From Owenia fusiformis (lineage: Eukaryota > Annelida > Polychaeta > Sabellida > Oweniidae), in NCBI GenBank assembly GCA_903813345.2, contig CAIIXF020000012.1:1281318-1345317 (forward strand): DNA of 64,000 nt, given 5' to 3'. Below are positions 34,708 to 57,967 of the stretch, one piece after another. The notes beneath the pieces are model-generated. The model saw only the letters and a program-made list of their open reading frames with translations. It did no database searches and had not been told where the DNA came from. Both the position numbers and the translations under genes were made by a program. Positions within the stretch are counted from its first letter, which is position 1, and each line of letters opens with the position of its first letter.

Positions 34708-37700
34708 GTATGTATGACCTCGCGATGTCTCAATAATGGTTGCATTCATATAACACATACATCTATCCAAACATGTTGTAAGACTCTTACTAAGAGACTT
34801 GTTACCTGTCAGATATGATTTTTTCACTTTCAGATTTTTCCATAATTTTTTATATTGATGTTGATCTGTGATTAGGATCAGTAGTAATTACAACATTCAG
34901 GTTACTACCTGACTAGATACTGAACTTAATTGTAGGTGAATAACTAATTTAGTTTCGGAGCTACATGTAGGCCTAAATGATTTGACGTTACTTCCTGCGA
35001 AAGCTATTTGGATTTTGATATAATAGCTTTCCCACGGAGCATTTGGACAGCTCAATGATCGTGACCTTTGAAATCGAATTAAGTCGATCCGCGGCTTACT
35101 TTTGGTCTCTAACTGTGTCTTTCATCAGTATCATCAATCCGTGTAAGTATTGGAGCGCTGGAGTACTTCTTTTTCGATCAAGACTTGTAATTGTTAGTCG
35201 AGTGAATCGTTTTACTGCCAAATTCCAATATGGCGGTTTCTGCTCTCGGACATTTTCGTAAATCTCCGGAGGTTGTCCGAACCTAACTAATTCTCAAAAT
35301 TCATTTCGTTCGTTGCATATCTCGCATCTAGCAAACCGCCATATTGGAAATAGGTCTGTAAAACTTTAACTCGATGAACAATTTACAAGTCTTGATCGAA
35401 AAAGAAGTACTCCAGCGCTCCAATACTTACACGGATTGATGATACTGATGTAAGACACAGTTAGAGACCAAAAGTAAGCCGCGGATCGACTTAATTCAAT
35501 TTCAAAGGTCACTATTGATCAGCTGTTCACTTCTCCGTTTGAGAGCCATAAGTTTCAAAATCTAACATGGCTCTCGAAGTGAGTAAGATTTGACGTACAT
35601 GTAAGGGTCCTCTGTCGAACTTCGCTATTTAGACCTTATCCCGTGCCAGGACTATGGTCCCGCGAACGTCTTATTCTTTTGCCTGTACGATTTCAACATG
35701 GGAGAATTTTCTATGCTTCTTACACTTAAAATACCTATTTCAATAGATTCCTTGGTATTTTAGCATTCTTTTCGTGTAGTTGAATCCACAATTGTCTGGG
35801 TTTATCGGCAGAACAAAGAAATTTTCGTTTTTGATCGCAATATTTGCGTGTAATATTTAACTTATTTCAACCATCAAATTCCTCCATTGTTGGTACTTCC
35901 GGGTCATTTCTGGGTCAGTCGAATGGGGAATTCCCTTTTAAATCCAACCGCCATCTTGGAAAGTGATGGAATATCTCTCGATGAAGAAGAAAAATGTTCC
36001 CGTTCTGCCGATATACCCAGACAATTGTGGATTCAACTACACGAAAAGAATGCTAAAATACCCAGGAATCTATTGAAGTAGGTATCTTAAGTGTAAGGGG
36101 CATAGATAATTCTCCCAAGTTGTAATCGTACAGGCAAAAGAATGTGCTCGTTACAGGACTATAGTCCTGGCACGGGATAAATTTAGACCATGACTGATAA
36201 TTCACATTAGAGGTCAACCATCTTTGATTAAGATTGTGCCCATGCATGATTATGATGTGTTTTTAAAAAACAAACATGGCAGACTGCATGAATTTAAAAT
36301 ATAAGCCAAGGTCGGAATAGCCCCAGCATAAAGTTACCCCATATATTCCAGTTCAACGCAGGACCCTTTAATCATGACATTTACACTATTGCCATGTAGT
36401 GACACATCAACATGTATGTCCGTGTATGTGGCTGCCTTGATTATGGCAATGGAGACAATAGCAAACCTTACAAAAATGAAAGATGGTTGACATGAATATC
36501 TAATATTATGAATATTTCCATGGCAATTTGTGAGAGATATCATGTTGTATGTATTATTATATTTAATAGGTATTATCCATAGACATTTTCCTCCAAATTT
36601 TACATATGTAAATTGTAAATTGTATTGTTGATTATTGAGTAAGTCATACTGTAGTTCCTAAGACGACCACGTGAGAGTCATGATAAGTAAGTATCTGGCT
36701 ATCCTTCCTCAAAGGAGAGGAGGGGGGGGGGCACCAAATCACAAATCAGGGGAGGGGGCATCAAATCAGTCCTAAACCTACTCATCCGAAATCTTTTCGT
36801 CATAACTTTGCAAAGGATCATAGATTGATCAACATTTATTCACAAATGCAAAAGGGAAGGGATGAACAATTGTTACAGAACAAAGCAAGAAAAATGAAAC
36901 ATCAAAGAGTACATCAGTCATAAGAAGTCATCAGTCACGAGGTATTGGTGACATTTTTTTGTTCTCACCCAATATTTTGCATGATTAGCCTGAGACTCAT
37001 TGTCTAGTACAATTAATGTTGTCAGATTCTTTGCTTAACTTGTCATGTTTAGAGCATTTGGAATGATCCCCTCTCAAATTTCTCAAGTGACAGCCTGGTG
37101 TTTAAAAGCCAAGCTGATGGGAGTATATAGTATTACATACATATGATAAAGGCTATATTTTATTTTTACAGATTTCCTGCAACTGATATAACAAGTAAGC
37201 AAAATGGTGTAAAGGACAATGATAATGTTTCACCTGATGACACAACAATGCAGCTATGCAATACTGCTGACCCAACTACAACAGCGCCATCTGTAAACTT
37301 CCTAACAGCAGATCTCAGTTCAGATGACAGTGACAATGATGAACCAAATAAAAAGTGCCAAAATGAAAAATCTGAAACAAAAGAACGATTACCAAATCCA
37401 TTAGCCCTGAGCCTACCATCTCCCTTATTAGGAGATGGAATTGGTTCGCAAGCAGGTGTTTTCAAAACCAAATTTCAAATAGCCGAGGAGGCTAAAAATT
37501 CAGTTCTTGAACAACATGTTAAGATGACAGTCGCTGAAACTTTGAAGAAAAAAGAACGTAAACAAATATGTTATAAGTTTAGAAAAGGACAATGCAAATT
37601 TGGGAAGAAATGCAAATACTTTCATGATGTTCCCAATGCTGGAAATTCCAATGATAATTCTGGGAACCAGGAAGAGACTAGTGCTAAAATTGTTCAACAT

Positions 37701-37886
37701 TTTGGAGTTTCAAATTTTCCTCAGGGAGAGGATTTACCAGTTGAGGTGGATGATGATAGCTATATGGGACAGGCCAAGAAAAAGAAAAGAGTAGGGATAG
37801 CTCAACAGAGCCTTGTACCTCCCAAGAGAGCAATGAAAAACTTAAGTAAAATTAGAGAACAAGAGCGACCATGGACGATGGATTAA
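34634..37886 (+). CDS. CCCH zinc-finger protein, two exons
   Basis: Exon 1 is 34634-34707 (donor GAGAA|GTATGT) and exon 2 is 37172-37886 (acceptor TTTTTACAG|A, stop TAA). They join in phase 2 to give 262 residues. The N-terminus MASLVADYGTSSGEDSD is acidic, then comes a Ser/Asp-rich low-complexity region and a Pro/Leu patch (LPNPLALSLPSPLLG). A helical segment ending EEAKNSVLEQHVKMTV follows. The single CCCH finger is C-x7-C-x5-C-x3-H (CYKFRKGQCKFGKKCKYFH), the type that usually binds RNA. The C-terminus is basic (KKKKR) and ends SKIREQERPWTMD. A nuclear RNA-binding or RNA-processing role is likely from domain and charge; I do not recognise the ortholog. The 2.46-kb intron carries two foldback transposons. 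Confidence 0.88.
34988..35586. mobile_element. Foldback element 1 with 9-bp target duplication
   Basis: Arms of about 250 bp (34988-35241 and 35332-35586) are complementary, for example CTTTTTCGATCAAGACTTGT with its partner. Direct repeats GATTTGACG flank it (34979-34987, 35587-35595). Long arms plus a 9-bp duplication indicate a Mutator-like non-autonomous element. Intron 1 of the CCCH gene. Confidence 0.85.
35636..36180. mobile_element. Foldback element 2 with 9-bp target duplication
   Basis: Arms of about 180 bp (35636-35815, 36001-36180) start TTATCCCGTGCCAGGACTAT. Flanked by ATTTAGACC at 35627-35635 and 36181-36189. The loop contains no transposase. It lies 49 bp right of foldback element 1, with unrelated termini. 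Confidence 0.88.
37172..37886 (+). CDS. CCCH protein gene, exon 2 (zinc finger)
   Basis: Main coding exon (residues 25-262) with polypyrimidine tract and CAG acceptor. It contains the CCCH finger near residues 161-180 and the basic KKKKR patch. A reverse-oriented remnant of a dispersed repeat lies 30-230 bp after the stop, probably within the 3' UTR. Confidence 0.9.
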
Positions 37887-39325: not shown

Positions 39326-39368
39326 ATGATGAGGGTTGGACTAGTAGCGATCTTCATGTTACTTGCAG
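39326..39368 (+). CDS. Kazal gene, signal-peptide exon
   Basis: Fourteen codons plus one base: a Met-Met-Arg start, a hydrophobic core and small residues at the expected cleavage site. Donor GCAG|GTAATA. The frame is open further upstream to 39212, but that extension is not signal-like, so the ATG at 39326 (or 39329) is preferred. Confidence 0.72.
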
Positions 39369-42300
39369 GTAATATCACAGGAAATGTATTTAGTATAAAG
39401 TCTTAATATTTCATGAATTGAAAAGTTTACTGTTTGGTTGCTTCGGTAAGGTTCTTGTACTCATAATATTCACAATTACGATCATTCTGATAATGATTCA
39501 TTCTGATGATAATTCATTCTGATAATGTCTCATTCTGAAAATGCTTCACTCTAGTAATGATTCATTCTGATAATGTCTCATTCTGAAAATGCTTCACTCT
39601 CGTAATGATTCATTCTGATAATGCCTCATTCTGATAATAGAATTATTCTGGAAATATCTCATTCTGATAATTTTTCATTCTGATAATGATTCATTCTGAT
39701 TATTATTCATTCATAGTTTATTATAGGCACTAAGTGGACATAAAGATGGCAGCAGTGGTCTTGTCTATTCAAATCTCCTTTTAGACAGATCACTAGTGCC
39801 ATCTTTTTTCCGACTTAATCCCTATCATCATTAAAAATGACTACCTCGAATGAAACCACTACACCACGTAAGCACAGTATCCATGGTATTATCACTTTAT
39901 TTATTTCAGCATGTAGTGTAGCTGTGCATGGGTCTACGGGAGATGGTTGTAATATGGTGTGTCCCATGGATTACCAACCTGTATGTTGGGATGATATGTG
40001 AGCACAGTACCCATGGTATTATTACTTTATTTATTTCAGCATGTAGTGTAGATGTCCATGGGTCTATGGGAGATGGTTGTAATATGGTGTGTCCCATGGA
40101 TTACCAACCTGTATGTGGGGATATGTGGGCACAGTACCCATGGTATTATTACTATATTTATTTCAGCATGTAGTATACATGTGCATGGGTCTATGGGAGA
40201 TGGTTGTAATATGGTGCATGTGTCCCATGGATTACTAGCATGTATGTGGGGATGATATGTGGGCACAGTATCCATGGTACTATTACTTTATTTATTGCAG
40301 CATGCATGTAGTGTAGATGTCCATGGGTCTATGGAGATGGTTGTAATATGGTGTGTCCCATGGATAACCAACCTGTATGTGGGGATGATATGTTGGAACA
40401 GTACCCATGGTATTATTACTATATTTATTTCAGCATGTAGTTTAGATGTGCATGGGTCTATGGGAGATGGTTGTAATATGGTGTGTTCCATGGATTACCA
40501 ACCTGTATATGGGGATGATATGTGAGCATAGTACCCATGGTATTATTACTTTATTTATTTTAGCATGTAGTGTAGATGTGCATGGGTCTATGGGAGATGG
40601 TTGTAATATGGTGTGTCCCATGGATTACCAACTTGTATGTGGGGATGATATGTGAGCAGAGTACCCATTGTATTATTACTATATTTATTTCAGCATGTAG
40701 TGTAGATGTGCATGGGTCTATGGGAGATGGTTGTAATATGGTGTGTCCCATGGATTACCAACCTGTATGTGGGGATGATATATGAGCACAGTACCCATGG
40801 TATTATTACTTTATTTATTTCAGCATGTAGTGTAGATGTGCATGGGTCTATGGGAGATGGTTGTAATATGGTGTGTCCCATGGATTACCAACCTGTATGT
40901 TGGGGTGATATGTTGGAACAGTACCCATGGTATTATTACTTTATTTATTTCAGCATGTAGTGTAGATGTGCATGGGTCTACGGGAGATGGTTGTAATATG
41001 ATGTGTCCCATGGATTACCAACCTGTATGTTGGGGTGATATGTTGGAACAGTACCCATGGTATTATTACTTTATTTATTCCAGCATTTAGTGTAGATGTC
41101 CATGGGTCTATGGAGATGGTTGTAATATGGTGTGTCCCATGGATTACCAACCTGTATGTGGGGATGATATATGAGCACAGTACCCATGGTATTATTACTT
41201 TATTTATTTAAGCGTGCAGTGTAGATGTCCATGGGTCTATGGGAGATGGTTGTTATATGGTGTGTCCCATGGATTACCAACCTGTATGTGGGGATGATAT
41301 GTGAGCACAGTACCCATGGTATTATTGCTTTATTTATTTCAGCATGTAGTATACATGTGCATGGGTCTATGGGAGATGGTTGTAATATGGTGCATGTGTC
41401 CCATGGATTACCAACCTGTATGTGGGGATATGTGGGCACAGTACCCATGGTATTATTACTATATTTATTTCAGCATGTAGTGTAGATGTGCATGGGTCTA
41501 TGGGAGATGGTTGTAATATGGTGTGTCCCATGGATTACCAACCTGTATGTTGGTGTGATATATGAGCACAGTACCCATGGTATTATTACTTTATTTATTT
41601 AAGCGTGCAGTGTAGATGTCCATGGGTCTATGGGAGATGGTTGTAATATGGTGTGTCCCATGGATTACCAACCTGTATGTGGGGATGATATGTGAGCACA
41701 GTACCCATGGTATTATTACTTTATTTATTTCAGCATGTACTGTAGATGTGCATGAGTCTATGGGAGATGGTTGTAATATGATGTGTCCCATGGATTACCA
41801 ACCTGTATGTTGATGTGATATATGAGCACAGTACCCATGGTATTATTACTTTATTTATTTCAGCATGTAGTGAAGATGTGCATGGGTCTATAGGAGATGT
41901 AATATTTTGTGTCCCATGGATTACCAACCTGTATGTGGGGATATGTGAGCACAGTACCCATTGTATTATTACTATATTTATTTCAGCATGTAGTATACAT
42001 GAACATGGGTCTATGGGAGATGGTTGTAATATGGTGTGTCCCATGGATTACTAGCATGTATGTGGGGATGATATGTGGGCACAGTATCCATGGTACTATT
42101 ACTTTATTTATTGCAGCATGCATGTAGTGTAGATGTGCATGGGTCTATGGGAGATGGTTGTAATATGGTGTGTCCCATGGATTACCAACCTGTATGTGGG
42201 GATGATATGTGAGCACAGTACCCATGGTATTATTACTTCATTTATTTCAGCATGTACTGTAGATGTGCATGAGTCTATGGGAGGTGGTTGTAATGTGGTG

Positions 42301-43826
42301 TGTCCCATGGATTACCAACCTGTATGTGGGGATGATATATGAGCACAGTACCCATGGTATTATTACTTTATTTATTTCAGCATGTAGTTTAGATGTGCAT
42401 GGGTCTATGGGAGATGGTTGTAATATGGTGTGTCCCATGGATTACCAACCTGTATGTGGGGATGATATGTGAGCACAGTACCCATGGTATTATTGCTTTA
42501 TTTATTTCAGCATGTAGTGTAGATGTGCATGGGTCTATGGGAGATGGTTGTAATATGGTGTGTCCCATGGATTACCAACCTGTATGTGGGGATGATATGT
42601 GAGCACAGTACCCATGGTATTATTACTATATTTATTTCAGCATGTAGTTTAGATGTGCATGGGTCTATGGGAGATGGTTGTAATATGGTGTGTCCCATGG
42701 ATTACCAACCTGTATGTGGGGATGATATGTGAGCACAGTACCCATGGTATTATTACTATATTTATTTCAGCATGCAGTGTAGATGTGCATGGGTCTATGG
42801 GAGATGGTTGTAATATGGTGTGTCCCATGGATTACCAACCTGTATGTGGGGATGATATGTGAGCACAGTACCCATGGTATTATTACTTTGTTTATTTCAG
42901 CATGTAGTGTAGATGTGCATGAGTCTATGGGAGATAATTGTAATTTGGTGTGTCCCATGGATTACCAACCTGTATGTGGGGATGATATATGAGCACAGTA
43001 CCCATGGTACTATTACTTTATTTATTTCAGCATGTAGTGTAGATGCGCGTGGGTCTATGGGAGATGGATGTAATATGGTGTGTCCCATGGATTACCAACC
43101 TGTATGTGGGGATGATATGTGAGCACAGTACCCATGGTATTATTACTTTATTTATTTCAGCATGTAGTGTAGATGTGCATGGGTCTATGGGAGATGGTTG
43201 TAATATGGTGTGTCCCATGGATTACCAACCTGTATGTTGGGATGATATGTGGGCACAGTACCCATGGTATTGTTACTTTATTTATTTCAGCATGCAATGT
43301 AGATGTGCATGGGTCTATGGGAGATGGATGTAATATGGTGTGTCCCATGGATTACCAACCTGTATGCAGGGATGATATGTGAGCACAGTACCCATGGTAT
43401 TATTACTTTATTTATTTCAGCATGCAATGTAGATGTGCATGGGTCTATGGGAGATGGATGTAATATGGTGTGTCCCATGGATTACCAACCTGTATGCAGG
43501 GATGATATGTGAGCACAGTACCCATGGTATTATTACTTTATTTATTTCAGCATGCAATGTAGATGTGCATGGGTCTATGGGAGATGGATGTAATATGGTG
43601 TGTCCCATGGATTACCAACCTGTATGTGGGGATGATATGTGAGCACAGTACCCATGGTATTATTACTTTATTTATTTCAGCATGTAGTGTAGATGTGCGT
43701 GGGTCTATGGGAGATGGATGTAATATGGTGTGTCCCATGGATTACCAACCTGTATGTGGCGACGATATGGTCACGTATCCCAACAAATGTAACTTAGAGG
43801 CCACTGCATGCGTGTACGTAATTTAG
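39326..43826 (+). CDS. Secreted Kazal-type protease inhibitor (signal exon plus Kazal exon)
   Basis: Exon 1 (39326-39368) encodes the signal peptide MMRVGLVAIFMLLA and ends in phase 1 at GCAG|GTAATA. The intact Kazal exon (43681-) begins after TTTATTTCAG and joins in frame. The domain shows CNMVCPMDYQPVCGDDMVTY followed by PNKCNLEATAC, giving Kazal spacing C-x3-C-x7-C-x10-C-x6-C. Read through, the exon stops at 43826 (62 residues), which lacks the sixth Kazal Cys. A donor TGTAC|GTAATT at 43818 could instead splice to a further exon. An extra Cys sits at residue 16. Kazal domains inhibit serine proteases with a substrate-like loop after the second Cys; a Gln-Pro pair lies in that stretch. The intron is filled by 29 truncated copies of the exon start. 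Confidence 0.8.
39480..39715. repeat. 16-bp minisatellite in Kazal intron
   Basis: About 14 units around ATTCATTCTGATAATG with CTC/TTC changes. Confidence 0.88.
39872..43680 (+). repeat. 130-bp array: 29 truncated Kazal exon starts with 3' splice sites
   Basis: Every unit holds CAGTACCCATGGTATTATTA, TTTATTTATTTCAG (acceptor) and about 88 bp of Kazal exon up to GATGATATG, then repeats. Exon-start positions include 39910, 40040, 40167, 40301, 40434, then roughly every 130 bp to 43551. Each truncated copy reads ...PVCGDDM/I then TGA, so none encodes a full domain. Two units have AAG in place of CAG at the acceptor. A GTGAGC donor-like site sits at most unit ends. Confidence 0.96.
43681..43826 (+). 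CDS. Kazal gene, intact Kazal exon
   Basis: The last and only complete unit of the 130-bp array. It continues past the point (GATGATATG) where all the others diverge, adding VTYPNKCNLEATAC. Five Kazal cysteines are at residues 28, 32, 40, 51 and 58. Its 3' end is either the TAG at 43824 or the donor at 43818. Confidence 0.82.
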
Positions 43827-45248
43827 TTATACATTAACTTATTTTTCTAATAATAATGTGTAAGATAGCAGTGAAACATCACAGGCCATTTACTGATATA
43901 TCACAGGCCTCAAATATGTATGATTGGAGTGAACAACCACAGGCCATTCAATTTCGTTTATTGTATTATACAAAGCCCGGGTCGAGGAATGGGATTTTTG
44001 TCTATGTAAAACCTAACTCGAAAATCAAAATCTTAAGTTAAAACGTTGGTTAAAACGTTTTTCATTTGAATTTTGAAAACACATCATAGCATTTCATTTA
44101 CACCCGGGACTTAAAATGTGAACCGAACGAAACAAGAACAAGCGGGTGATCTCAACGAGTGATATATACATTTTAACAAGACAATTATATTTCTTGTCAT
44201 GCGAGACATGCATGTATCACTAAGAAAAATAACAATTAAAGCTTAATCAGTGGCGTAGCCAGGATTTTGTGACCAGGGGTTCAATTTTTTATATTATCCA
44301 CAAATATCCACCTTCATCGGGGTTCCTCACATAAAACCATTTTTGTAATTTTCTTACATACAATTTACACCCCTTCCAAAAGTGTGTCAACCGTAAACTC
44401 CCCCATGGAGTGGTTAAGCCTCCTCCTTATGTTTGAATTCTTATTCGTATAATATGTACAGTGTAAAGAAAAAACTGTCCGATACTTCCATTTGTTTTCG
44501 CAAAATACAATTGAATTTGAAAAAGTTAGATTTTGATTTTGAATTTGATTTTCTATGTTAAAATAGTTTTTGGTGAATCTGTTACTGAATAGATATCCTC
44601 AAATCTGAAGGCAATATCATGATTTTAATATTACATTTGTTTAATGAAATCCAAATCAAGAGTTCAATATATTGAGCTAAGTTTAAGGGCAAATCCCAAC
44701 ATATCTTTAAGGAACATATGCATCTTTATTTTAAAAGAAGCTACTTTAGGGAGAAATCCTCATTCCTAATTTATTGAGATAGACTTTAGAGTTTATACAA
44801 AGATATGTCAAATTCTGAAACATGCAATTCCCACACTTTATACTGAGATTATGATTTGTCTAAAAGATTCCAAATCAAAAGATTTTATTTGGTATTTCAT
44901 TTATAATAGAGGAGTGTTCATTCATAATGACCTTATGAACTTACATTTAGTTACTGAATTGAAGAATAATCAATAGCAAATATTTTCGAAGAAGGTATAG
45001 TAATATTTATTTAATCATGGCGCACAAAAAAGTCTTTATGGCTACGTGAATACTCTTTGACGATGGAAGTGACAGATGATAATTAGTAATGTAATAAAAT
45101 GAAACATAGGCTGAAATTCCCAAACGACCAAATTGAAAACACGATATATATTGTACTCCGTAAGCTAAAATTAAACCTTTTTCAAATTGCAATGCTTTAG
45201 AACAAAGAAGACCTACTGTAGTGCTGAGTTGAAATTCAATTCCCAGTA
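43827..45248. other. Spacer after the Kazal exon
   Basis: No gene seen. Holds a short ACAGGCCATT direct repeat (43880-43950) and a fragment GTGGCGTAGCCAGGATTTTG at 44251. Confidence 0.4.
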
Positions 45249-45574
45249 CAGGTGACCCCAAAAACGTCACCCTCTTAATTTGGGAATAACTATATCTCCG
45301 TTTTGAAGGACTTTTCATGATTTTTTGTGTCGAAAGAGAGTTAAATGCTTAAATCATTGGAATTTACCTAAGCAGTCAGTTCATCATATTTGACAATGGC
45401 TCAAATAATGGCTAAGACAGAAATCTCAGAAAATTGCATTTTCAACATTTTTGGACAATATCACTGGATCATTTTAAAACTTGTTTAAACAGTCTATCTA
45501 CGCAGATAAATTTTAAAGAAATCATACTTGAGTTTATACCAAAATGAGAGGGTAATTTTTTCTGGGTCAACCTG
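45249..45574. mobile_element. Inverted-repeat element with TA flanks
   Basis: TA|CAGGTGACCCCAAAAA at left and TTTTTTCTGGGTCAACCTG|TA at right; GTCACCCTCTTAATTTG pairs with AAATGAGAGGGTAAT. About 325 bp, with no ORF. Confidence 0.55.
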
Positions 45575-46206
45575 TATATGAAGGTGTACCCGTGAACTAG
45601 CACGCGCGTTACAAATGTCCATTGAAATTTAGCAAAAGCATCAGGCTACGGCCTGAGTATAGCAGTCACATCGGAATGTTTTAAAGGCTAATTGTAGACA
45701 CTAAGCGTACGTTTGTCTAAACTGTAATCGTATAATATGTTTTAATATAATTTTTAATATAAAAGAAATCGAAATGATGGATAATAAATACTATACCCAT
45801 TCAAATGCTTGTGTTTATAAATGATACATACATGTATGCTTTTTATAATAACTCATTTCAAAATGTTTCTATTATTTGATATTTGCTCTTGGGGACTAAT
45901 CAGCTCCTGGCAAGAAATCTTTTGTTTGAAATAAAACAAAACGAAACCGCACAGATTTGAAGGATAATGTGTTTTCATCGCTTCCTAGTCAACTCGTATC
46001 CAAGACAACTGGAACCAAAGACAACTCATACCCAAGTTTATTTTCAGTATTATGGGTGCATATTAGGAAAACATCTGTATAACGTCTGTATAACAATGTT
46101 TTAATGTTATAATGTGAATCAAATAAGCCTCAATATTTTTTCTGAATTTAGAAAACATTTTTTCTCTTGTTCTAAACTTTTTTTATACAAATATATAAAT
46201 AAATAT

Positions 46207-47686
46207 ACTCCCCTCCATAAGTTTGGCAACCTTTTTTCCCCCATTGAACTACGTGTTAAAGCCTCTTTACCTTTGAATTTTTATTTACTTAACCTGCGAT
46301 GAAAATACTTATACTATTGATGGAAACGTAATTTGACTTTAATTCCAATACCTCAATTACAATAGGTCGAAAATTGATAATGAATTTGATGAAGTTTTGA
46401 AAATCGACATTCCCATGTTAACCAATGGGAAATAGTAGGTTTGCCGCAAGTCATATGACAGAATATCGATCCATCTGAGTCCTTGCAAAAAATACGAGTT
46501 AGACAGGCAATTGAATTTGCTAACTTTATTAAACCAAAAATTGATATGTTTCTTCAGGTTCAACAAAGTTATAGGGCTTTAAAGTCAAAATTGTTTTCCA
46601 AAAAACCTCTCCCATTGAAATAACACAGGAGGCGAAAAATTATTTTCAAAAATGACTTTGAAGCGCTGTAACTTTAATATTCATCAAATAAACTAAACAC
46701 ATAGTGTTAAAAAAAGTTAGACAATTTAATTTTCTGTATAAAAATATTTTTTGCTGAATCTTTTACTGAAAAGATATCCTGATTTCTGATTTGCCCCGAA
46801 CTCTCCATTTCCCATTGGATTACATGGGAATGACGATTTTCAAAAATTCATCAAATTTATTATCAATTTTCGACCTATTGTAATTGAGGAAAAATATTCA
46901 GAAAATTTGGAGGTATTGGAAATAAAGTCAAGTTACGTTTCCATTAATATATATAGAATGTCACATCATTTTGAGTGATATCATTTTTATCGCCGAGTTG
47001 ATATCAAATATCAACACGAGTGAGCGAAGCGAATGAGTGTTGGTATATGATATCTACGAGGCGATAAAATGATATCACGAGAAATTATGTGATATTGGGT
47101 TTATCCCATGATTACAATCACCTTGTGATGTTCTGATCCAATTTCCAGGACATTGGCAGACACAAAAATCTAGAAATTAGAATTTGCACCGGCCATTTTG
47201 ATTTGTACTTTACTCACTGCGCAGTAATATGCACTACTTTCTGTACATGATATAGTTCGTCATAAATACCATTTTTAATCGTTATTCAGCAACCTTCTAA
47301 TCAAATTATATACACAATCGTAATTCAATACACCAATGAAACTTAAGGAGAATAAATTAACGGACCTATTTTCTCAAAAGAGAATAAATTATCTGATCTA
47401 ATTTCCAACAATATTGTGGCGCGAAATGCAAATGATATCACACGGATATGCGTGAGATAAACGATATCACACGCATATGAGTTTGATAAACGATTTTCTG
47501 GAAAATATCACACGGATTTCAATAATATCAGAAATATCAATAGCTGTTATTGTACAGATAACACATTAATCGTGGGATAATATAAGTTATTTCATCGCCG
47601 GTTAAGTAAATACAAATTCAAACGTAAAGAGGCTTTAACACGTAGTTCAATGGGGGAAAAAGGTTGCCAAACTTATGGAGGGGAGT
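46207..47686. mobile_element. 1.48-kb inverted-repeat element with nested palindromes
   Basis: The left end ACTCCCCTCCATAAGTTTGG is exactly matched by the complement of the right end. Pairing continues through CGTGTTAAAGCCTCTTTAC and into the interior (AAATTGATAATGAATTTGAT). A second hairpin around CGAGTGAGCGAAGCGAATGA is nested inside. No transposase ORF. Fragments of the terminus occur near 28088 and 57606. Confidence 0.72.
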
Positions 47687-47965
47687 GTTTAATTACAACA
47701 GTAACTTTTCTACAAATGAATCAAACAACACAAGACAAAATCGTATGGAATAAATTGCAATAAGATGGTTATTAAGCTTGTTATTATGGTCTTACTAGTG
47801 GTTATTATTGAGTAATGGTACAGGTATCCGATATGGTATTGCAGCTTACACTTAAGTAATGGTACACGTATCCTTGGATTTTAGGCCCGAATACCGAGGT
47901 TTATTTTTTTGATTATCGTGTATTATTATTTTGTGTTAATATTAGTTAACCATCTAACTATTGGC

Positions 47966-48056
47966 TACCCTTTGCATTCGTTTGACTTCACTTCTTAAAA
48001 TAGAGCTTCGTCTTCGTCTTGTAGTTTAACTACATGTAGACTCTGCACGCAGGGTA
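47966..48056 (-). mobile_element. Mutator-like miniature element, TACCC family copy 2
   Basis: 91 bp in reverse orientation, flanked by perfect 9-bp repeats ACTATTGGC (47957-47965, 48057-48065). Confidence 0.88.
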
Positions 48057-48102
48057 ACTATTGGCATGATATTGATAACCTTGTTATATTAATATAGCGC
48101 AT

Positions 48103-48333
48103 AGGCGTAGCCAGGGGGATGCGATGGGATGCGATCGCACCCCCCCCCTCCATAACCAATGAAAATAGAACCATTAGAAAGAAGAGAAAAGTCTTAAAAT
48201 GCTTTTTTTGAAGCTTCTAGCTCGATTTTGAACGAAGTTGCACCAATTTTTGTAAAATTCAAAACAAATCTTCAAAAACATTTTTAATGCCACGATCGCA
48301 CCCCCCCCCCGACTGAAAGCTGGCTACGCCACT
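48103..48333. mobile_element. GGCGTAGCC inverted-repeat element, medium copy
   Basis: Starts ATAGGCGTAGCCAGGGGGAT and ends GCTGGCTACGCCACTG. Contains two poly-C tracts beside GCGATCGCACC. Target duplication not clear. Confidence 0.55.
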
Positions 48334-48569
48334 GTAACGTGTAATCAATACGCTACATTTTGTATGTTCAATTTGTATACTAAAAACTGTTATTAATCCA
48401 CAGATTTAGATGAAGACAAGATAAAAATCCGAATCAAGAATGAAAAGGTGTCTAAGTATATAAATCTTAAGGGTAATGCATATTTGAATTAAACAGAGGC
48501 GGGTTAATTTATATTGTACTATGAATTACGCAATTATTCAAAATTGCAGCTAAGATGCCTGTTTTATGA

Positions 48570-48657
48570 TACCCTGCGTGCAGAGTCTAGTTAAACTACG
48601 TATACACTAAGACGAAGCTCTCTTTTAAGAAGTGAAGTCGAACGAATGCAAAGGGTA
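48570..48657 (+). mobile_element. Mutator-like miniature element, TACCC family copy 3
   Basis: 88 bp, TACCCTGCGTGCAGAGTCTA to GCAAAGGGTA, flanked by perfect 9-bp repeats GTTTTATGA (48561-48569, 48658-48666). Confidence 0.88.
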
Positions 48658-49770
48658 GTTTTATGAAAAATATCACGAAAGATGTATTCTAGATATCAGT
48701 AGTATTCTCAGAAATTTATTATCCGAAACGGATAACATCTGGCCACTCAGACAAACAATCGCAGACATAGGCTAAGCTTGTTTATTTAACAGTTAGATTT
48801 GTTGACTTACCGATCCGTATTTCAATCTCCGGGAAGACGTTCTTTTCACTTTGTATTTGCGTGCAGTGTAATATAAGTTGATACTTTTGTTCAAAAATGT
48901 ACTTTTAATGGCCATTTTATGCCTTTTATTTTCAAATTATGTTTTGATGTAAGTGTGAAAAGTCAAGAAACGTCAACCCCGACTTTTAATTAAAAAATGT
49001 TGGTTAATCACTTATGGCAAATCACAAGGTTGATGATGTCAACGGACCATGATCGTGGAAGGCTATCAATATCAGGTGTATATCGGATAGAAAATAAATA
49101 TAGCTAATTTTTCGCACTGATATGATGATGACTATTCTGGCGAATCGGGTAGATATTTCTCAGTTTTTTTCCGATAATAAAACTATTCATTTCTATCAAT
49201 TTAACAAACAGGGTCCTTTGAATGCACATTAAAACTATAAAAGTATTTATTGGGCGTACATACTCGTTCTGTCATGTTACTTTCATTTCATTTGCAAGTT
49301 GTCCACATATTAATCCAGCGTTTTGTTTAATCAAATTTCCCGCCCCTTGAGGTTTCCGACTGTAAAACTTAATATTTAATACTAACCAATGCATCAGTTA
49401 ATATTTTCAGAATACAAATTTTCCATTTTTATTTCTCTGATAGATAAAGTCTCATTTTGAATCTGTTCGTGTATTAAAGAGTATGCTTTTATAATGCCGT
49501 GGTCACATTTGCTCAGATTTTATAAAAGCACGATCTATTTTACAACGCCTTTAAGTTTTGTTGCCCTTTGTGCATTTCAAAAATAAAATATCTTAATCTG
49601 ATTTGTTCCACCTTTCTTTTCGCTCAGTTCTGCAATATTATGTCCATATGTTGTTTAGGATTATGTCATTTGCGAAATAGCTGTAAGACATTATGAGAAT
49701 GAATATGGGAGATTCCACGATAATGTTCTTCACATGATTTTATACACATACCTGCACAACAATCGCAAAC

Positions 49771-50444
49771 AGAAGTCTTAATATTGTCCAATAAAAAATA
49801 AGAATCTAACATTTAATGATAACAAAAGGATTAATTGCTTAGTTCTCTTTGTTTTAGTCTTTGTTTTCTTAAATGCGGAAGTGTACCAACATCACCTAGA
49901 TTACATAAGAGATCATCTGACAGTCTAAAATTGCTTTTAATTGCAAGTTAATGCATTCCGACCAAAATTTGTATACCTGTAATTTGGGGGGGGGGGCGAT
50001 GTTACATCACATAACTACAACGTTCATATAGCAATATACAATAAGCATGTCCGTATAAAAGCTAAAATTATAAAAACTCATTTCAAAGTCATTCTGTTCA
50101 TGGAAGCGTCAAGTTATGAAAAACAATGCTAAACACTCAAACAAATCGACTTTATTACCTTTGAAAACTTCTTGAGAGGAAATGGACTAATGTATTTTTC
50201 TAACTCATTAGAGCGTCTGTCTGATTGAAATACTATTTTTTAAATACAAACATAAATGATTTAATCTTGGTCAGAAGTCTGAACATTGTCCAACAAAATA
50301 ATAAGAATCTAACATTTAATGATTACAAAAGGATTAATTGCTATATAGTCTTTGTCTTAGTCTTTGTTTTTCTAACGGCGGAAGTGTACCAACATCACCT
50401 TGATTACAGAAGAGATCATCTAACAGTCTAAAATTGCTTTTAAT
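49771..50444 (+). repeat. Duplicated 170-bp block with exon-like end
   Basis: Copy A 49771-49942 and copy B 50273-50444. Both contain an acceptor-like TTTTAG or CTTAG followed by an open frame ending AEVYQHHLDY-x-RDHLTV and a TAA stop. Several differences in this frame are silent. It could be a pair of alternative last exons or chance. Confidence 0.5.
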
Positions 50445-52445
50445 TCCCGGGTTTTAATTACATTTTATGTATAGACTTTTTGCCTCTATTCTCATTTTTA
50501 AACCTGTTTCTGTTTGCTTATTTAACAATTGTGATAAATTATTCAGTTAGTGTCGAAATCAAAACAATTTTCTACTTTATAGTCCCCTCCTCTTGCACTG
50601 AATAAATATTAAAATAAGCCAGTCTGATTGCGAATTTACAAATCCTGTAAAAGTAGCTCCAAACCGCCTTTTAATCAGAGAAAACAATAAGTTAATTCAT
50701 CTGATTGCGAAAATACGAATCAATCTGATTATCTGATCCCCATGCTATTTCATCTTGATTCACAAGGTTTCGATGGTTCCTACCTGTCTCTAGACCCAGT
50801 GGAAAGCGACGACGTGCTATTTGATTCGTGCATTATCTACAAGTCAGTCGGGCAAGGGTGAAATTATTTCATTTGAAAACAGAAATAAATATCAGAACCC
50901 CTCTAGCATTACTATTCGGAAGAAATTCATAAAAAAATAAGGTACACAACTGATGAAGGGTCGCACACAATGCACGCACCCCTGTCCTCATCCTCGGTGT
51001 TTGCCCACACACGACCACATTTGACAATTTTTCTAAAAGCGTTTTCCCCGGGAATATAGGTGTAGCGGTTGCCAGAAGTCGCACAGCTTGGGAGTCAGGG
51101 TATCCTGATCAATGCCTCAACGCCTGACGGGTCTGATATTTAGAGGGGGCGCAAGAATTATTAGGGGGCGGGGTAAACATGAAAGTTGCATAAATATCCA
51201 TAGGCGTAGCCAGGAGGGGGGGGGGGGGGTGCGATGGGTGCGATAACAATAGGCTTTATATATGCTTTAATGTTTTATTTAGCATGATGCTTTTATGTAG
51301 GCTATTAATTACAGTTCTTTTTGCAATATAAAACTGGTATGTTTATGCAAATTCCGATTGGACTAATATAAAGGGATATTGTTTCATTATGTGGACTTGA
51401 GAAAGTCCGACATACTCATTGCTTTCAACCCAAAACTTAAAATAGGAAGTTATCAAGATTCCAAGAACACGATCGCTACTTAAACAATACGTTTGTAAAA
51501 TCCCGGCGATCGAAATGCAATCAAACTTTCGCAATCAGGTGCCTAATTAGTCTTTTGATCTCTAAAGTTTTACGACTGAACGTTTCAATGAACTCGTGAG
51601 AAGCAAACGCAATCATCATATAAACATTTTTGAAAAGTCAGTCTCGGAAGAATTTTCCAAGCATTCCCTGCTTCGATGCGTTTTTATTGCAAGGGCCGTT
51701 TAGCGCCGATAATATAATTCATTATAAGGCATTAGGGTTGTGCTTTATTTGTTTTATTTATATAATGTTATAAATGTGTACGACACTTTAATGAATTATT
51801 TTTAGGGTTACAATGCATATTTGACTTTTCCCTCTAAACGTTTAAAATTCATCTTTATACTTTTATACTTTTCTTAGTTTGCTTCAATAAAATTTAACAT
51901 TGGATCCCAGACAGTTATCAAATTCTCAGACATTTGATTAATATAGATATTTGTACTTCCGTTGACCAGTGGTGCTGGTGTGACTGAGATTCGAATCTAA
52001 TATGTTTCATTTTTATGTAAATTGAGAGGAATAAAATTTTATTTTAAGCGTTTTAACAATCTTAACGTTTGGCGTGCAGCTCAACTTAATACACAATCAA
52101 AGGTCAGAATACAGAAATAAGAACATGCCTTTTATTTGTTATTCAAGCTCCAGCAATATCCCCGTTATAAAACCAAAATAACTGCGGTTAGGTACCATAT
52201 CTTGATTACAGTTAAGACAGGCCATCTCATTTTGGTATGCCAGAGCCACTCTTATCTGCCGATTGTGGAAGGATAAAGACAAAGGGGTTGCGGCTATCGC
52301 GATGAGGCCATCTTATTTCTAGGAATTATTTCTGCCTCTCATTCCTTAAACCGGCTTTGTTAAACAGTGCCAAAATATATAAGTCGGAGCCAAAAACAAG
52401 ACTATTTTTATATTTAAATCCCCTCACCTTGTCAATGTCTATGCT
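50445..52445. other. Spacer with no gene recognised
   Basis: AT-rich. Contains a short TAGGCGTAGCCAGGAGG fragment with a G run near 51202. Confidence 0.35.
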
Positions 52446-52451
52446 ATGCCT

Positions 52452-52950
52452 CAGGCCTGTCAACTTGGGAACACCTAACATGAGTGACTTGGAAATGTTG
52501 AACACCTCCCCTCTAAATGTGGACACCTTGGTCCAAATCTGAACACCTCGATCCAAATTTTGAACACCTTGGTTTAAATTTTATTACATCTTGTGAAATT
52601 TTGAACACCTCAAATTTTTCGCGATCGCTACGCTTGCGTTTCAAACATCCATCAACGGGGGGGGGGGGGGGGGTAGGTACGAACATTTTCGGGACGGAAT
52701 GCGTGACATATTAGTGATTCGCGTGAAAAGTCCGAACGAAATGCGTACGTTTTTTTTCGGCGTTCGTATTTTTGCTGTGTAGACGAACTTTTTTAGAAAT
52801 TTTTCTACAGAAATTTTTTTGCTTGACAATTACCAGGTAAAATGCGTATTTGCGTGACATTTTCTGTCACGCAAAAATAACTGGCGTGACTTCAAATTCT
52901 TCAGCAAATGCGTGACAAATACGCAAATTGCGGGACAGTTGACAGGCCTG
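52452..52950. mobile_element. CAGGCCTGTCAAC inverted-repeat element with 6-bp target duplication
   Basis: Left CAGGCCTGTCAACTTGGGAA, right CGGGACAGTTGACAGGCCTG, flanked by ATGCCT on both sides. The interior has a run of GAACACCT repeats and a poly-G tract. 499 bp, no transposase. Confidence 0.75.
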
Positions 52951-53129
52951 ATGCCTGCATCTGGTTTTCCCACCTTTGGGAGGGAGCCAATATACACATA
53001 GATTACTTACTGGCCATTGACGGGGGGTGGGGCACAGAAACGAACATTCTGGGGTCATAAGGGATACTTGGGGAAGAGGGAGGGGTGGTGGTGAATAGTG
53101 AAGTCCGGGAGTGAAGTTAAGGGGTACTG

Positions 53130-53450
53130 AAATCTTTCTTTTGATATTTAGTGCTTGAATGGAGACTTGTTTCCACTCCCCGCATTCTAGTAGAATTTAA
53201 ATATTTGATCCAAAGGAGTTATTTTAAATCAAACTTGCATTCCGATTAATTAACACTCCAATGATTGTACCGCTTCACTATTGTCTAAGATAATTATAAT
53301 GAATTCACGGGACACTATAGTATATATAGTATATTTAAACTTTAGTGGTTGGATGGAGACTTGTTTCCCCATCCGGTACACTAGTAAATTTGTAAATTTT
53401 AAATATTTGATTTAGGGAGGTATTTGCAATCCAACTCTGATGATGCAAGA
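53130..53450. repeat. Diverged tandem duplication of about 200 bp
   Basis: GGATGGAGACTTGTTTCC + CATCC/ACTCC, CTAGTA, AATTTTAAATATTTGAT and GGAGGTATTT occur in the same order at 53155-53225 and 53350-53430. Confidence 0.6.
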
Positions 53451-55075
53451 CTAGTCAACCAAGACTAAATTATGAACTTATTATCATTTAGACTATTGAG
53501 TTCATTAAATTATAATTCCATAGATATCATATTTAATCCTGTCAACACAATAATGGTATTAATTGGCATGATATGTAGTCAGAGACGGTTTAAAAAGTTG
53601 TTTAGATTAATGATATAGTATTAGGAAAAATCCTAACTCAAAGTTTTTGTTCTCTCGCAATCCAGAGCAAACCACTCGCCGGGCAAGCATTCTTTAAAAA
53701 CGTGAAGTTTTCACCATGTTGAACAGTTTTGAAAATTGTCCAATTTGAACCATCGCCTTGTATATTTCTGTAACTGCCCCCCCCCCCCTTGACACTCGAG
53801 TGTAAGAATCCTTTCCACACTGTCAATGGTTTTACAAAATAGTTCATGTCAGGAAGGGGGAGGGGTGAGTGTAGAGAACAATCACTGACTGCGATTTGTA
53901 TGATTGAACATTATACACTTATCATAAATTCGTAAAGAATAGTTTTAAAATAAACAGCTTGTTTTATTTTATGATTGGAGTGATGTATGCATAGAAGAAT
54001 GACACTGGTTTTGAAATATCTTAATTATCCCATTGAATGAAGCCATCCGTCCCTCTGTCCATTTTTAAGTCATACTGGTGGACTGATTTGATTTAAAGGA
54101 GAAGTCTCGGTGTAGAACGTGTACACACTAATGGGAACGAATTTTACTCATTTCTATTTAGGATTCGTTCATATACTAGCGGGGCTTTAGAGCATTTACA
54201 AACGCACGAATTGTATTGTTTTAAAGCAACTTTTATGACATATAATGTATTTAAAGCTGATTAATTTTAGATTATATTCGGTTCAATTTTACAAATAATG
54301 AATAGTATTACAGTATATCGAAAAATATGTAATGATTTACATTAAATTGCGCAGACTGCAAGCAATGTACATGGTTGGCCAATTTGCATGCGCGTTCTTG
54401 ATAATAAGAATTAAAGGTTGAACTTAAAAATCAAACATTTTCTTTTTTAAACATAATAAATCTTTAAATCAAGAAAATAAAAATAAGATTGATGATTGGA
54501 CTTTTCATAGTCAACTGCGACTGTGTCGACGCATGTTTATTTACTTAGCTAATTAGATATGTAAAATTGTTAATGGCCGCAACGGATAATACGTACATGT
54601 AAGCTGTTCGGATAAGACATTTCTAAATGATTAATAACAAATGTTATTCAGCAGAATGTTATTCAGCAGTAACAGATCTTATTAGTTATTATTCAATTTG
54701 GATAATAAATCTATTATCTCGTCGTATTGATGTTTATTATATAGTGTTTCTCGTTGTGCAATTAATTCAGCTTAGTGCATTTGGAGAAAGTTAATAAGGG
54801 AAGTTTAATCTGTTAATTTCTTTTCCATTTGGAACTTAATTGGATTATATTTGAGCACATGCATACAACGTGTATTATATCATGTATGAATAAGTACCAA
54901 AATAATATTTGATATTTATATTATTTAGAATATTTTATTGCTAAATTTTATGAATGTGACTTCGTAGAATTAACTTTCTTTAATCTGATAATATGAAATC
55001 CTAAAGAGACCATCTGTTTAATGAGAAATTAGGCCCAAGTTTTGATAAATCTTAACAAGGCATTAACATGACAAA
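53451..55075. other. Spacer with no gene recognised
   Basis: AT-rich, with a poly-C tract near 53778. Confidence 0.35.
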
Positions 55076-56980
55076 ATGTCACCACCTAAAACAATTTGGT
55101 CAATTTAAAGCAAGTTGGAAAATACCTTTTGACCTTAAGAAGGTTTTTGAAGATTTGATCTTCTGGGATCTTGTATATGATTTTGAAAAAAGAAATTGTT
55201 CAATCTGAAGCAAGTTAAAACTAGTTGCACACAAATCTTAAGTCAGATTTGAACTTCTTAGAACATGTAGATGATTTTGAAAAAAAAAATCGTCAATTTG
55301 AAGCAAGTTGAAAAAATACCTCTTTGACTTTTTTTGACATTGAGAAGGTCATTGAAGGTCAAATGTCAAATGTAAAGTCAGATTTGAACTTCTGAGAACA
55401 TGTAGATGATTTTGAAAAAAATTAAGTAAATTTGAAGCAAGTTGAAAAAAGACCTTTTTGACCTTGAAAAGGTCATTGAAGGTCAAATGTCAAATCTAAA
55501 GTCAGATTTGAACTTCTGAGAACATGTAGATGATTTTGAAAAAAAATTAGTCAATTTGAAGCAAGCTGAAAAAAGACCTTTTTGACCTTGAAAAGGTCAT
55601 TGAAGGTCAAAGGTCAAATCTAAAGTCCGATTTGAACTTCTGAGAACTTGTAAAGTCAAATTTGAACTTCTGAAAAGATGTAGATGATTTTGAAAAAAAA
55701 ATTTGGTCAATTTGAAGCAAGTTGAAAACAGACCTTTTTGACCTTTTTTGACCTTGAGAAGGTCATTAAAGGTCAAATGTCAAATCTAAAGTCAGATTTG
55801 AATTTCTGAGAACATGTAGATGATTTTGAAAAAAACAAATTAGTCAATTTGAAGCAAGTTAAAAAAAGACCTTTTTGACCTTTTTTGACCTTGAGAAGGT
55901 CATTGAAGGTCAAATGTCAAATCTAAAGTCAAATCTAAAGTCATATTTGAATTTCTGAGAACATGTAGATGATTTTGAAAAAAAAATTTAGTCAATTTGA
56001 AGCAAGATGAAAAAATACCTTTTTGACCTTTTTTGACATTGAGAAGGTCATTGAAGGTCAAATGTCAAATCTAAAGTCAGATTTGAATTTCTGAGAACAT
56101 GTAGATGATTTTGAAAAAAAATTTAGTCAATTTGAAGCAAGTTGAAAAAAGACCTTTTTGACCTTTTTTGACTTTGAGAAGGTCATTAAAGGTCAAATGT
56201 CAAATCTTAAGTCAAATCTAAAGTCAGATTTGAATTCCTGAGAACACGTAGATGATTTTGAAATTTTTTTTAGTCAATTTGAAGCAAGTTGAAAACAGAC
56301 CTTTTTGACATTTTTTGACCTTGAGAAGGTCATTGAAAGTCAAATGTCAAATCTTAAGTCAAATCTTAAGTCAGATTTGAATTTCTGAGAACACGTAGAT
56401 GATTTTGAAAAAAAATTAGTCAATTTGAAGCAATTGAAAACAGACCTCTTTGACCTTTTTTGACCTTGAGAAGGTCATTGAAGGTCAAATGTCAAATCTA
56501 AAGTCAGATTTGAAGGTCAAATGTCAAATCTAAAGTCAAATCTAAAGTCAGATTTGAATTTCTGAGAACATGTAGATGATTTTGAAAAAAAATTTAGTCA
56601 ATGTGAAGTAAGTTGAAAAAAGACCTTTTTGACCTTGAGAAGGTCATTGAAGGTCAAATGTAAAATCTAAAGTCAGATTTGAACTTCTGAGAACATGTAG
56701 ATGATTTAGAAAAAAATTGAAGTCAGTCTAAACAGTATTTGTTAAGTTATAGGAAGTTGCAAGAAATTGTTACAGACGCCGGACGCCAACCTCCAACCGC
56801 CGGACGCCAACCTCCAACCGCCGGACGCCAACCTCCAACCGCCGGACGCCAACCTCCAACCGCCGGACGCCAACCTCCAACCGCCGGACGCCAACCTCCA
56901 ACCGCTGGACGCCAACCTCCAACCGCCGTCGCAAAAAACGGAGACCATAACAATATGTCACCACTTTTGGTGGTGACATA
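55076..56980 (+). mobile_element. Composite element with tandem core, 21-bp minisatellite and hairpin
   Basis: Begins ATGTCACCACCTAAAAC. The core is roughly eleven units of about 125-190 bp (GACCTTTTTGACCTTGAGAA, GGTCATTGAAGGTCAAATGT, GAGAACATGTAGATGATTTT). A 21-bp minisatellite (CGCCGGACGCCAACCTCCAA, 56772-56929) follows, and it ends in the hairpin CACCACTTTTGGTGGTG then ACATAA. Same plan as 25324-26823, fitting a Helitron-type (HINE/pearl) element. Confidence 0.78.
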
Positions 56981-57184
56981 ATAATACCATCTTTTAAGAT
57001 GAATTAGATCTGACACTTGTTCCAAACACTCGTAAACATACAAAAATACCACTAATATTTTGAACAATGATTATGTATATGTGGAATAAACATAGGTCTC
57101 GTCCCTCAATCATCCTGAATCTGTGACCAATATAAAATAATAGTCAAAATAGATTGACACTTAATTTTTCAAAGCTCAAAATGG

Positions 57185-57325
57185 TACAAGTTGTCTTCGG
57201 TACGAGTTGTCTTGGGTACGACTTGACTTGGGTACGAGTTGTCTTGGGTACGACTTGACTTGGGTACGAGTTTTTTGGGTACGACTTGATTTGGGTACGA
57301 GTTGTCTTGGGTACGAGTTGACCAG
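57185..57325. repeat. 19-20-bp minisatellite
   Basis: About seven units alternating TTGGGTACGAGTTGTC and TTGGGTACGACTTGAC. An inverted two-unit relative lies at 45985-46035. Confidence 0.85.
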
Positions 57326-57865
57326 TTAGCTTTTCATCGGTATTAAGACAATAAGTGGTTGTTTTTATGTTAAAATAAAAAATAACAATTTTTATGTTAA
57401 ATTGATTGAAACAAATTATTTATCATTATAGGAACAATTTTCAGTTGCTTGAAAAAGATTAAAAGAATAAATCGACATATTGCAAAACTAAATCAATTTG
57501 TTCGTATTAAGACACTTGGTTTATTTTACCGGATATGAAGCAGCTTTTAAGTTAGAAAACACATTGTGCGAAATTATTGTTATTTCTTTGCATAATGTCA
57601 TAACGATCCGGGGTCTTCCAAACTTTTGGAGAGAAGTGTACAACTTCATTATATTTTTATTTACTGGTCATATAAATTGAATTAAATGTTTCTGTTTTTC
57701 CACAAATATTTTCATAACACCAAATGCAAGGTATACTAGTGTGATATACTTATATATACTTTGACATGCGTATGTTCGATTACCGGATTAATGCCGGCCA
57801 TATATGACAGATTGTCGGCCATATATGACAGATTGTCGGCTTATTCGATCTGGTTGTTTTTTCAG

Positions 57866-57967
57866 GCAAAAGAAGACTGTGACAATTCTTCATACAGGGG
57901 AATGCTAGGACATGGGCTTGAACGGATCATTGCACACGAGTTAAAGATCCCCCATGGACAATACTAG
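57866..57967 (+). CDS. Possible last exon of the Kazal gene
   Basis: After the acceptor TTGTTTTTTCAG an open phase-0 frame of 33 codons (AKEDCDNSSYRGMLGHGLER and 13 more residues) ends in TAG. Phase 0 matches the donor at 43818, and its single Cys could supply the missing sixth Kazal Cys, although the spacing from the fifth (six residues) is shorter than usual. The 14-kb intron this requires makes the link tentative. It could also belong to an unrelated transcript or be chance. Confidence 0.3.
   Translation, partial: AKEDCDNSSYRGMLGHGLERIIAHELKIPHGQY

Follow-up and report, generated by a model that had tools for sequence, protein, structure and literature searches.

A mirage-type array of about thirty intron-exon boundary copies in a predicted Kazal gene of the annelid Owenia fusiformis

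Mirages are minisatellites of amphioxus that repeat intron-exon boundaries (PMC3087553). The genes described as carrying them are the globins BflGb6 and BflGb9, Adh3 and troponin C, with PGBD5 compared with these, and PMC3902484 names PGBD5, Adh and troponin C as further lancelet cases. In BflGb6 each repeat joins an intron's 3' end to the 5' part of the exon that follows it, in units of 150-160 bp that are 81-100% identical; splice signals are present in many, though not all, mirage repeats, and length variation has been seen among mirages (PMC3087553). Mirages are reported to leave splicing undisturbed (PMC3087553, PMC3902484). In potato, an upstream intron-exon structure was duplicated and a cryptic GTAAG became the new 5' splice site (PMC4974935, which also recounts the case of ATP2A1), and in human segmental-duplication genes internal tandem repeats located where exons meet introns can alter splicing and form introns (PMC2812944). 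The literature search, which extended to few subscription papers, found mirages in amphioxus only; the bird paper PMC5714495 contains the word too.

The window, meaning the whole stretch of 64,000 nucleotides that was analysed, lies on contig C12 of the 498-Mb, 525-contig assembly of Owenia fusiformis, and all positions below are window positions unless a contig is named. This genome contains a match to the erythrocruorin-linker family, one specific to annelids, and developmental and adult transcriptomes have been produced for the species (PMC9977687). It contains a tandem array at 39871-43769 with a period of 130, 30.0 copies and 92% matches (TRF), which by its anatomy is of the known mirage kind. 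The repeat unit spans a predicted intron-exon boundary of a gene, one intact boundary with an intact exon 2 (43681-43813) stands beside the array, and the units measure 123-134 bp, in the mirage range of tens to about 160 bp, with splice signals in the form of AG at 30/30 acceptors and GTRRGC in 20/29 decoys. The array is probably a minisatellite of mirage type that is tolerated within intron 1 of a working three-exon, single-Kazal, SPINK-like gene. The features of this gene are listed below, with a slash marking the splice boundary within motifs.

39326-39368, + strand: predicted exon 1, signal peptide MMRVGLVAIFMLLA, with a phase-1 donor CAG/GTAATA at 39369
39369-43680, + strand: predicted intron 1, with the array inside
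39482-39712, + strand: short repeat of 16/48 bp, unrelated to the array, also in intron 1 (TRF)
39868-43638, + strand: the 29 decoys, each about 130 bp long
43639-43680, + strand: intronic part of unit 30, which carries the authentic acceptor TTTATTTATTTCAG
43681-43813, + strand: predicted exon 2, Kazal C1 to C5, entered in phase 1 and left in phase 2, with a donor CGT/GTACGT at 43814
43814-57865, + strand: probable intron 2, 14 kb
57866-57908, + strand: predicted exon 3, QKKTVTILHTGEC plus stop TAG, giving Kazal C6

A scan at analyst-set thresholds for hydrophobic phase-1 exons that begin with ATG and have a fair donor gives 39326-39368 as the sole signal-peptide exon on the + strand of the window; the opposite strand has one as well. 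By itself, the Kazal exon covers only positions 8-32 of the 49 in the Kazal_1 profile, and coverage stopping at 32 indicates that the sixth cysteine is absent from it. A scan of 43840-63940 for acceptors that open onto a short frame reaching a cysteine returned nine candidate last exons, eight of which were run against the Pfam profiles (60681 was left out). The candidate at 57866, behind TTGTTTTTTCAG, reads VQKKTVTILHTGEC when joined from the 43814 donor, with a stop directly after the cysteine. Its addition raises the scores from 33.3 to 47.4 bits for Kazal_2 and from 39.3 to 46.7 bits for Kazal_1, with coverage extended to 2-48 of 48 and 8-49 of 49, respectively, and six cysteines in place. 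The seven rival last exons reach at most 39.8 bits for Kazal_2 (53801) and 40.8 bits for Kazal_1 (53666), with the exon at 53801 likewise filling the Kazal_2 profile to its end. From the profile fit and the acceptor, we infer that the exon at 57866 is the last exon. The earlier note had modelled the Kazal exon as terminal, ending at the TAG at 43824 and lacking the sixth cysteine; this model is set aside because the predicted donor at 43814 and the exon at 57866 complete the domain in both Kazal profiles, so that the exon once taken as terminal is most likely internal.

The predicted product is an intact SPINK-like protein of 72 residues, with a Kazal spacing of C-3-C-7-C-10-C-6-C-13-C plus one extra cysteine ahead of the domain, as read from the sequence. 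In the SPINK1 layout, a signal exon precedes a Kazal domain that is split between C5 and C6, with C6 as the last residue. The present gene resembles SPINK-type single-Kazal genes in all of these respects, but differs from them in its extra pre-domain cysteine and in the array within intron 1. Upstream of the Kazal gene, at 37131-37886, lies an open frame of 251 residues with a stretch that by eye resembles a CCCH zinc finger. Elsewhere in the assembly, two Kazal-like exons on contig C13 (L016 at 423550 and L017 at 388252) stand in opposite orientation with nearly identical sequence, and are perhaps a recent inverted pair.

Cutting the array at the repeated AGCACAGTAYCCAT gives 29 partial decoy units (39868-43638) and a thirtieth unit that continues into the intact exon. 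Each decoy, about 130 bp long, holds the final 42 nt of intron 1 with its AG acceptor, and then 81-92 nt (about 88) from the start of the Kazal exon. The acceptors comprise 27 CAG, one TAG and two AAG. Two descriptions in the earlier note are borne out by these counts, namely that of about 30 consecutive acceptors in a 130-bp array, with 30.0 TRF copies and AG at every one, and that of an array copied from the start of a Kazal exon, with 29 decoys formed of intron end and about 88 nt of exon ahead of the intact exon at 43681. Pairwise differences among decoys range from 1 to 16 and no two decoys are identical, which argues against assembly stutter. In a search of the whole assembly, where copies can be missed, all 30 of the 30 matches to the consensus unit fell at the array locus.

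The decoys also carry donor-like ends, which are GATAT/GTGAGC in 15/29, GATAT/GTGGGC in 5/29 and GTTGGA in 3/29, with the GT lost in 6/29. The GTRRGC of 20 decoys stands 42 nt ahead of the next acceptor, so that each such unit resembles an 88-nt exon followed by a 42-nt intron. The first unit starts at an intronic CACCAC/GTAAGC (39868), suggesting that the duplication set exon sequence before the intronic GTAAGC. Estimated U1 pairing is -4.4 kcal/mol for GTGAGC and -3.6 kcal/mol for GTGGGC, compared with -8.1 kcal/mol for the exon-1 donor and -0.8 kcal/mol for the exon-2 donor; the predicted exon-2 donor is thus weaker than the donor-like sites of 20/29 units, leaving the real exon without an advantage in donor strength. 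About 18% of all + strand GT in the window reach -4 kcal/mol, and a donor-like unit end is therefore a modest signal. RNA folding as a means of hiding the decoys was assessed against shuffles in three of the 30 units, none of which folded better (z 1.12, -0.37 and -0.72).

Some features of the array and its surroundings are recorded in their own right. Strand asymmetry is strong across the array, with a GC skew of +0.325 and +0.308 in two 2-kb steps (window 40001-44000). Tandem repeats make up about 20% of the window (12917 bp), compared with 5.5% in 38 loci (L015-L052), an example being a 95 bp x 19 repeat at 20050-21849 (TRF). The exon text CACGTATCC (43772-43780) resembles the intron text CACAGTATCC (39873-39882) at the opposite end of the duplicated segment, a likeness that may have aided the first misalignment or may be due to chance.

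Variation among the units was compared with the expectations for translated and untranslated DNA. The decoy exon part holds 41 distinct changes, of which 8 are synonymous, 32 replacing and one a stop, with a synonymous expectation of 23.8% at the array's own transition bias (p 0.59). The decoys show no sign of coding constraint, with little power for weak constraint. Frame-shifting indels occur in 6/29 decoys (units 3, 4, 10, 12, 16 and 18), unit 4 combining an insertion of 4 with a deletion of 1, a sum of +3. At the array's mean rate, the chance that the AG remains unchanged at all acceptors is about 0.39, a retention expected by chance, and selection for the acceptors is accordingly unsupported. 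Decoy changes like those of untranslated DNA, together with chance-level AG retention, give no sign that the sites or any short peptides are kept by selection. The real exon shows four differences from the unit consensus, three of them synonymous (one-sided p 0.044), an excess that mildly supports a working gene in a test resting on four changes.

Shared private variants, several of which are common to units 3-4 and 17-18, likewise to units 11 and 14, and likewise to units 27-29, are as expected under unequal exchange, and by this measure units 17-18 and 3-4 appear to be block copies, an indirect sign of length instability. Across the whole array, adjacent decoys show no clear excess of similarity over a shuffled order (lag 1, p 0.07), and a higher-order repeat of fixed period was rejected, with the signal at lag 14 (p 0.01) among 19 lags not significant after correction. 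The earlier note had further proposed that units adjoining the exon share its private variants and that the exon exchanges sequence with the array. The exon variant GATGGATG is carried by just four decoys (25, 27, 28 and 29), all of which fall within the final five of the 29 (chance 5/23751, about 0.0002, calculated post hoc), and the exon variant CGTGG is common to unit 25 only, whereas CATGCAATG is restricted to units 27-29 and absent from the real exon. The sharing of variants therefore stands for GATGGATG and falls for CATGCAATG, and the proposed exchange reduces to two variants common to the exon and some of the last five decoys, a sharing that could have run in either direction.

The consequences of using an early acceptor were read from the decoys. 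Read through with no later splicing event, every one of the 29 frames reaches a stop in at most 77 residues, after 1-7 cysteines, with 17 decoys stopping at a shared TGA (44 residues), two at another TGA and ten at TAG or TAA. Of the six Kazal cysteines, the consensus product of 44 residues retains three, together with the extra one, and its Kazal_1 score of 20.8 bits falls just below the cut-off of 21. An end at TGA, soon after the third or fourth cysteine, had been anticipated for any early acceptor; the TGA holds for 19/29 decoys, not for the other ten, and the four cysteines hold for the consensus product, not for the full range of read-throughs. The claim that the full protein would require the most distant acceptor agrees with the predicted frames. 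The last read-through stop (unit 29) lies at 43640, 173 nt before exon 2 ends. Stops placed this far ahead of the final exon junction would be expected to lead to transcript decay.

Taken as a tolerated mirage-type minisatellite, the locus would have formed by tandem duplication of a 130-bp segment that runs from the intronic GTAAGC (39868) and reaches about 88 nt into exon 2; the repeat structure is observed and the mechanism is a likely one. Unequal exchange would then have expanded the segment to 29 decoys, with blocks of units copied and variants shared with the unit adjoining the exon. The decoys now appear to evolve as untranslated DNA, within the limits of small counts. In most splicing events exon 1 would be joined to the last acceptor, since no other acceptor belongs to a complete exon. 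A decoy, if used, would bring in a stop far ahead of the exon 2/3 junction, and decoy transcripts should therefore go to nonsense-mediated decay. The net outcome would be an intronic minisatellite that is tolerated and perhaps mildly costly, with an effect of the array on expression being possible.

The best surviving alternative, unlikely but worth weighing, is a splicing throttle, in which decoy acceptors compete, decoy transcripts are lost to nonsense-mediated decay and inhibitor output falls with rising copy number. It draws on decoy acceptors whose local sequence nearly equals that of the real one, on 20/29 units whose GTRRGC donor pairs better with U1 than does the predicted donor of exon 2, and on the early stop in 29/29 decoy read-throughs, but chance-level AG retention gives no sign of selection for acceptors, the loss of GT at 6/29 donor positions gives none for donors, and normal splicing is reported for amphioxus mirages (PMC3087553, PMC3902484). 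A sharper version, in which the array would act as a copy-number dial, with about 30 near-equal acceptors, many accompanied by donor-like sites stronger than that of the real exon, diverting most transcripts to decay and the unit number setting inhibitor output so that individuals differ, is distinctly unlikely. The earlier note had offered both a throttle and short four-cysteine peptides; neither gains support from decoy variation that fits untranslated DNA, frame-shifting indels in 6/29 decoys and a product at 20.8 bits against the 21 required by Kazal_1.

Under another alternative, some units would serve as cassette exons of 88 nt with 42-nt introns between them, yielding truncated or altered proteins as a step toward new exons and introns. 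Inserted between the first two exons, 19 of 20 such cassettes bring an early stop before a complete Kazal domain, which, with the lack of any sign of coding constraint in the decoys, makes this reading very unlikely despite the fitting anatomy of acceptor, 88 nt and GTGAGC, the one cassette of 20 (unit 16, 81 nt) that keeps frame into the whole domain, and the potato gene that gained an intron similarly by tandem duplication with a cryptic GTAAG (PMC4974935). Unit 16 (window 41864-41944) owes its 81 nt before GTGAGC to deletions, and is the sole frame-keeping cassette. A dead or dying gene, with the array as a pseudogene relic, as the weak exon-2 donor and thirty competing acceptors might suggest, is highly improbable given three predicted exons with intact frames and six intact Kazal cysteines, and 3/4 real-exon changes being synonymous.

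Further cases were sought in the same genome. In 33 trypsin and globin loci (18 of 161 trypsin matches and 15 of 19 globin matches), no TRF array with a period of at least 15 overlapped a family match or lay within 60 bp of one, and no such array overlapped the seven Kazal exons in L015-L019, whose positions were matched by eye. In the 18 trypsin loci the domain lies mostly or wholly within a single open frame, so that few boundaries are on view, and the control is a weak one. The array as a general trait of the genome is set aside on this basis, with no further case in either set and with the same weakness of control. If the gene is expressed, the locus would provide a natural experiment on spliceosome choice among about 30 near-identical 3' splice sites, and the array could be a starting point for new exons and introns. 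Relative to the papers found, an annelid case suggests that mirages are not a cephalochordate speciality.

Among the described systems, the repeats of human segmental-duplication genes resemble the present array in their placement at exon-intron boundaries and in the potential for introns to form, and differ in showing variation among paralogues with transcript support, compared with one gene read from sequence here (PMC2812944). In the potato case one duplication became a used intron, against 29 copies here (PMC4974935). In amphioxus, splicing and length variation were observed, whereas the present array is known from the sequence of one haplotype. The hosts also differ, being globin, Adh3 and troponin C genes in amphioxus and a Kazal gene in an annelid, as do the copy numbers, with 6 and 3 repeats in the two BflGb6 haplotypes against 29 decoys here. 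Like amphioxus mirages, the array consists of tandem repeats across an intron-exon boundary, and its anatomy is the same as that of BflGb6.
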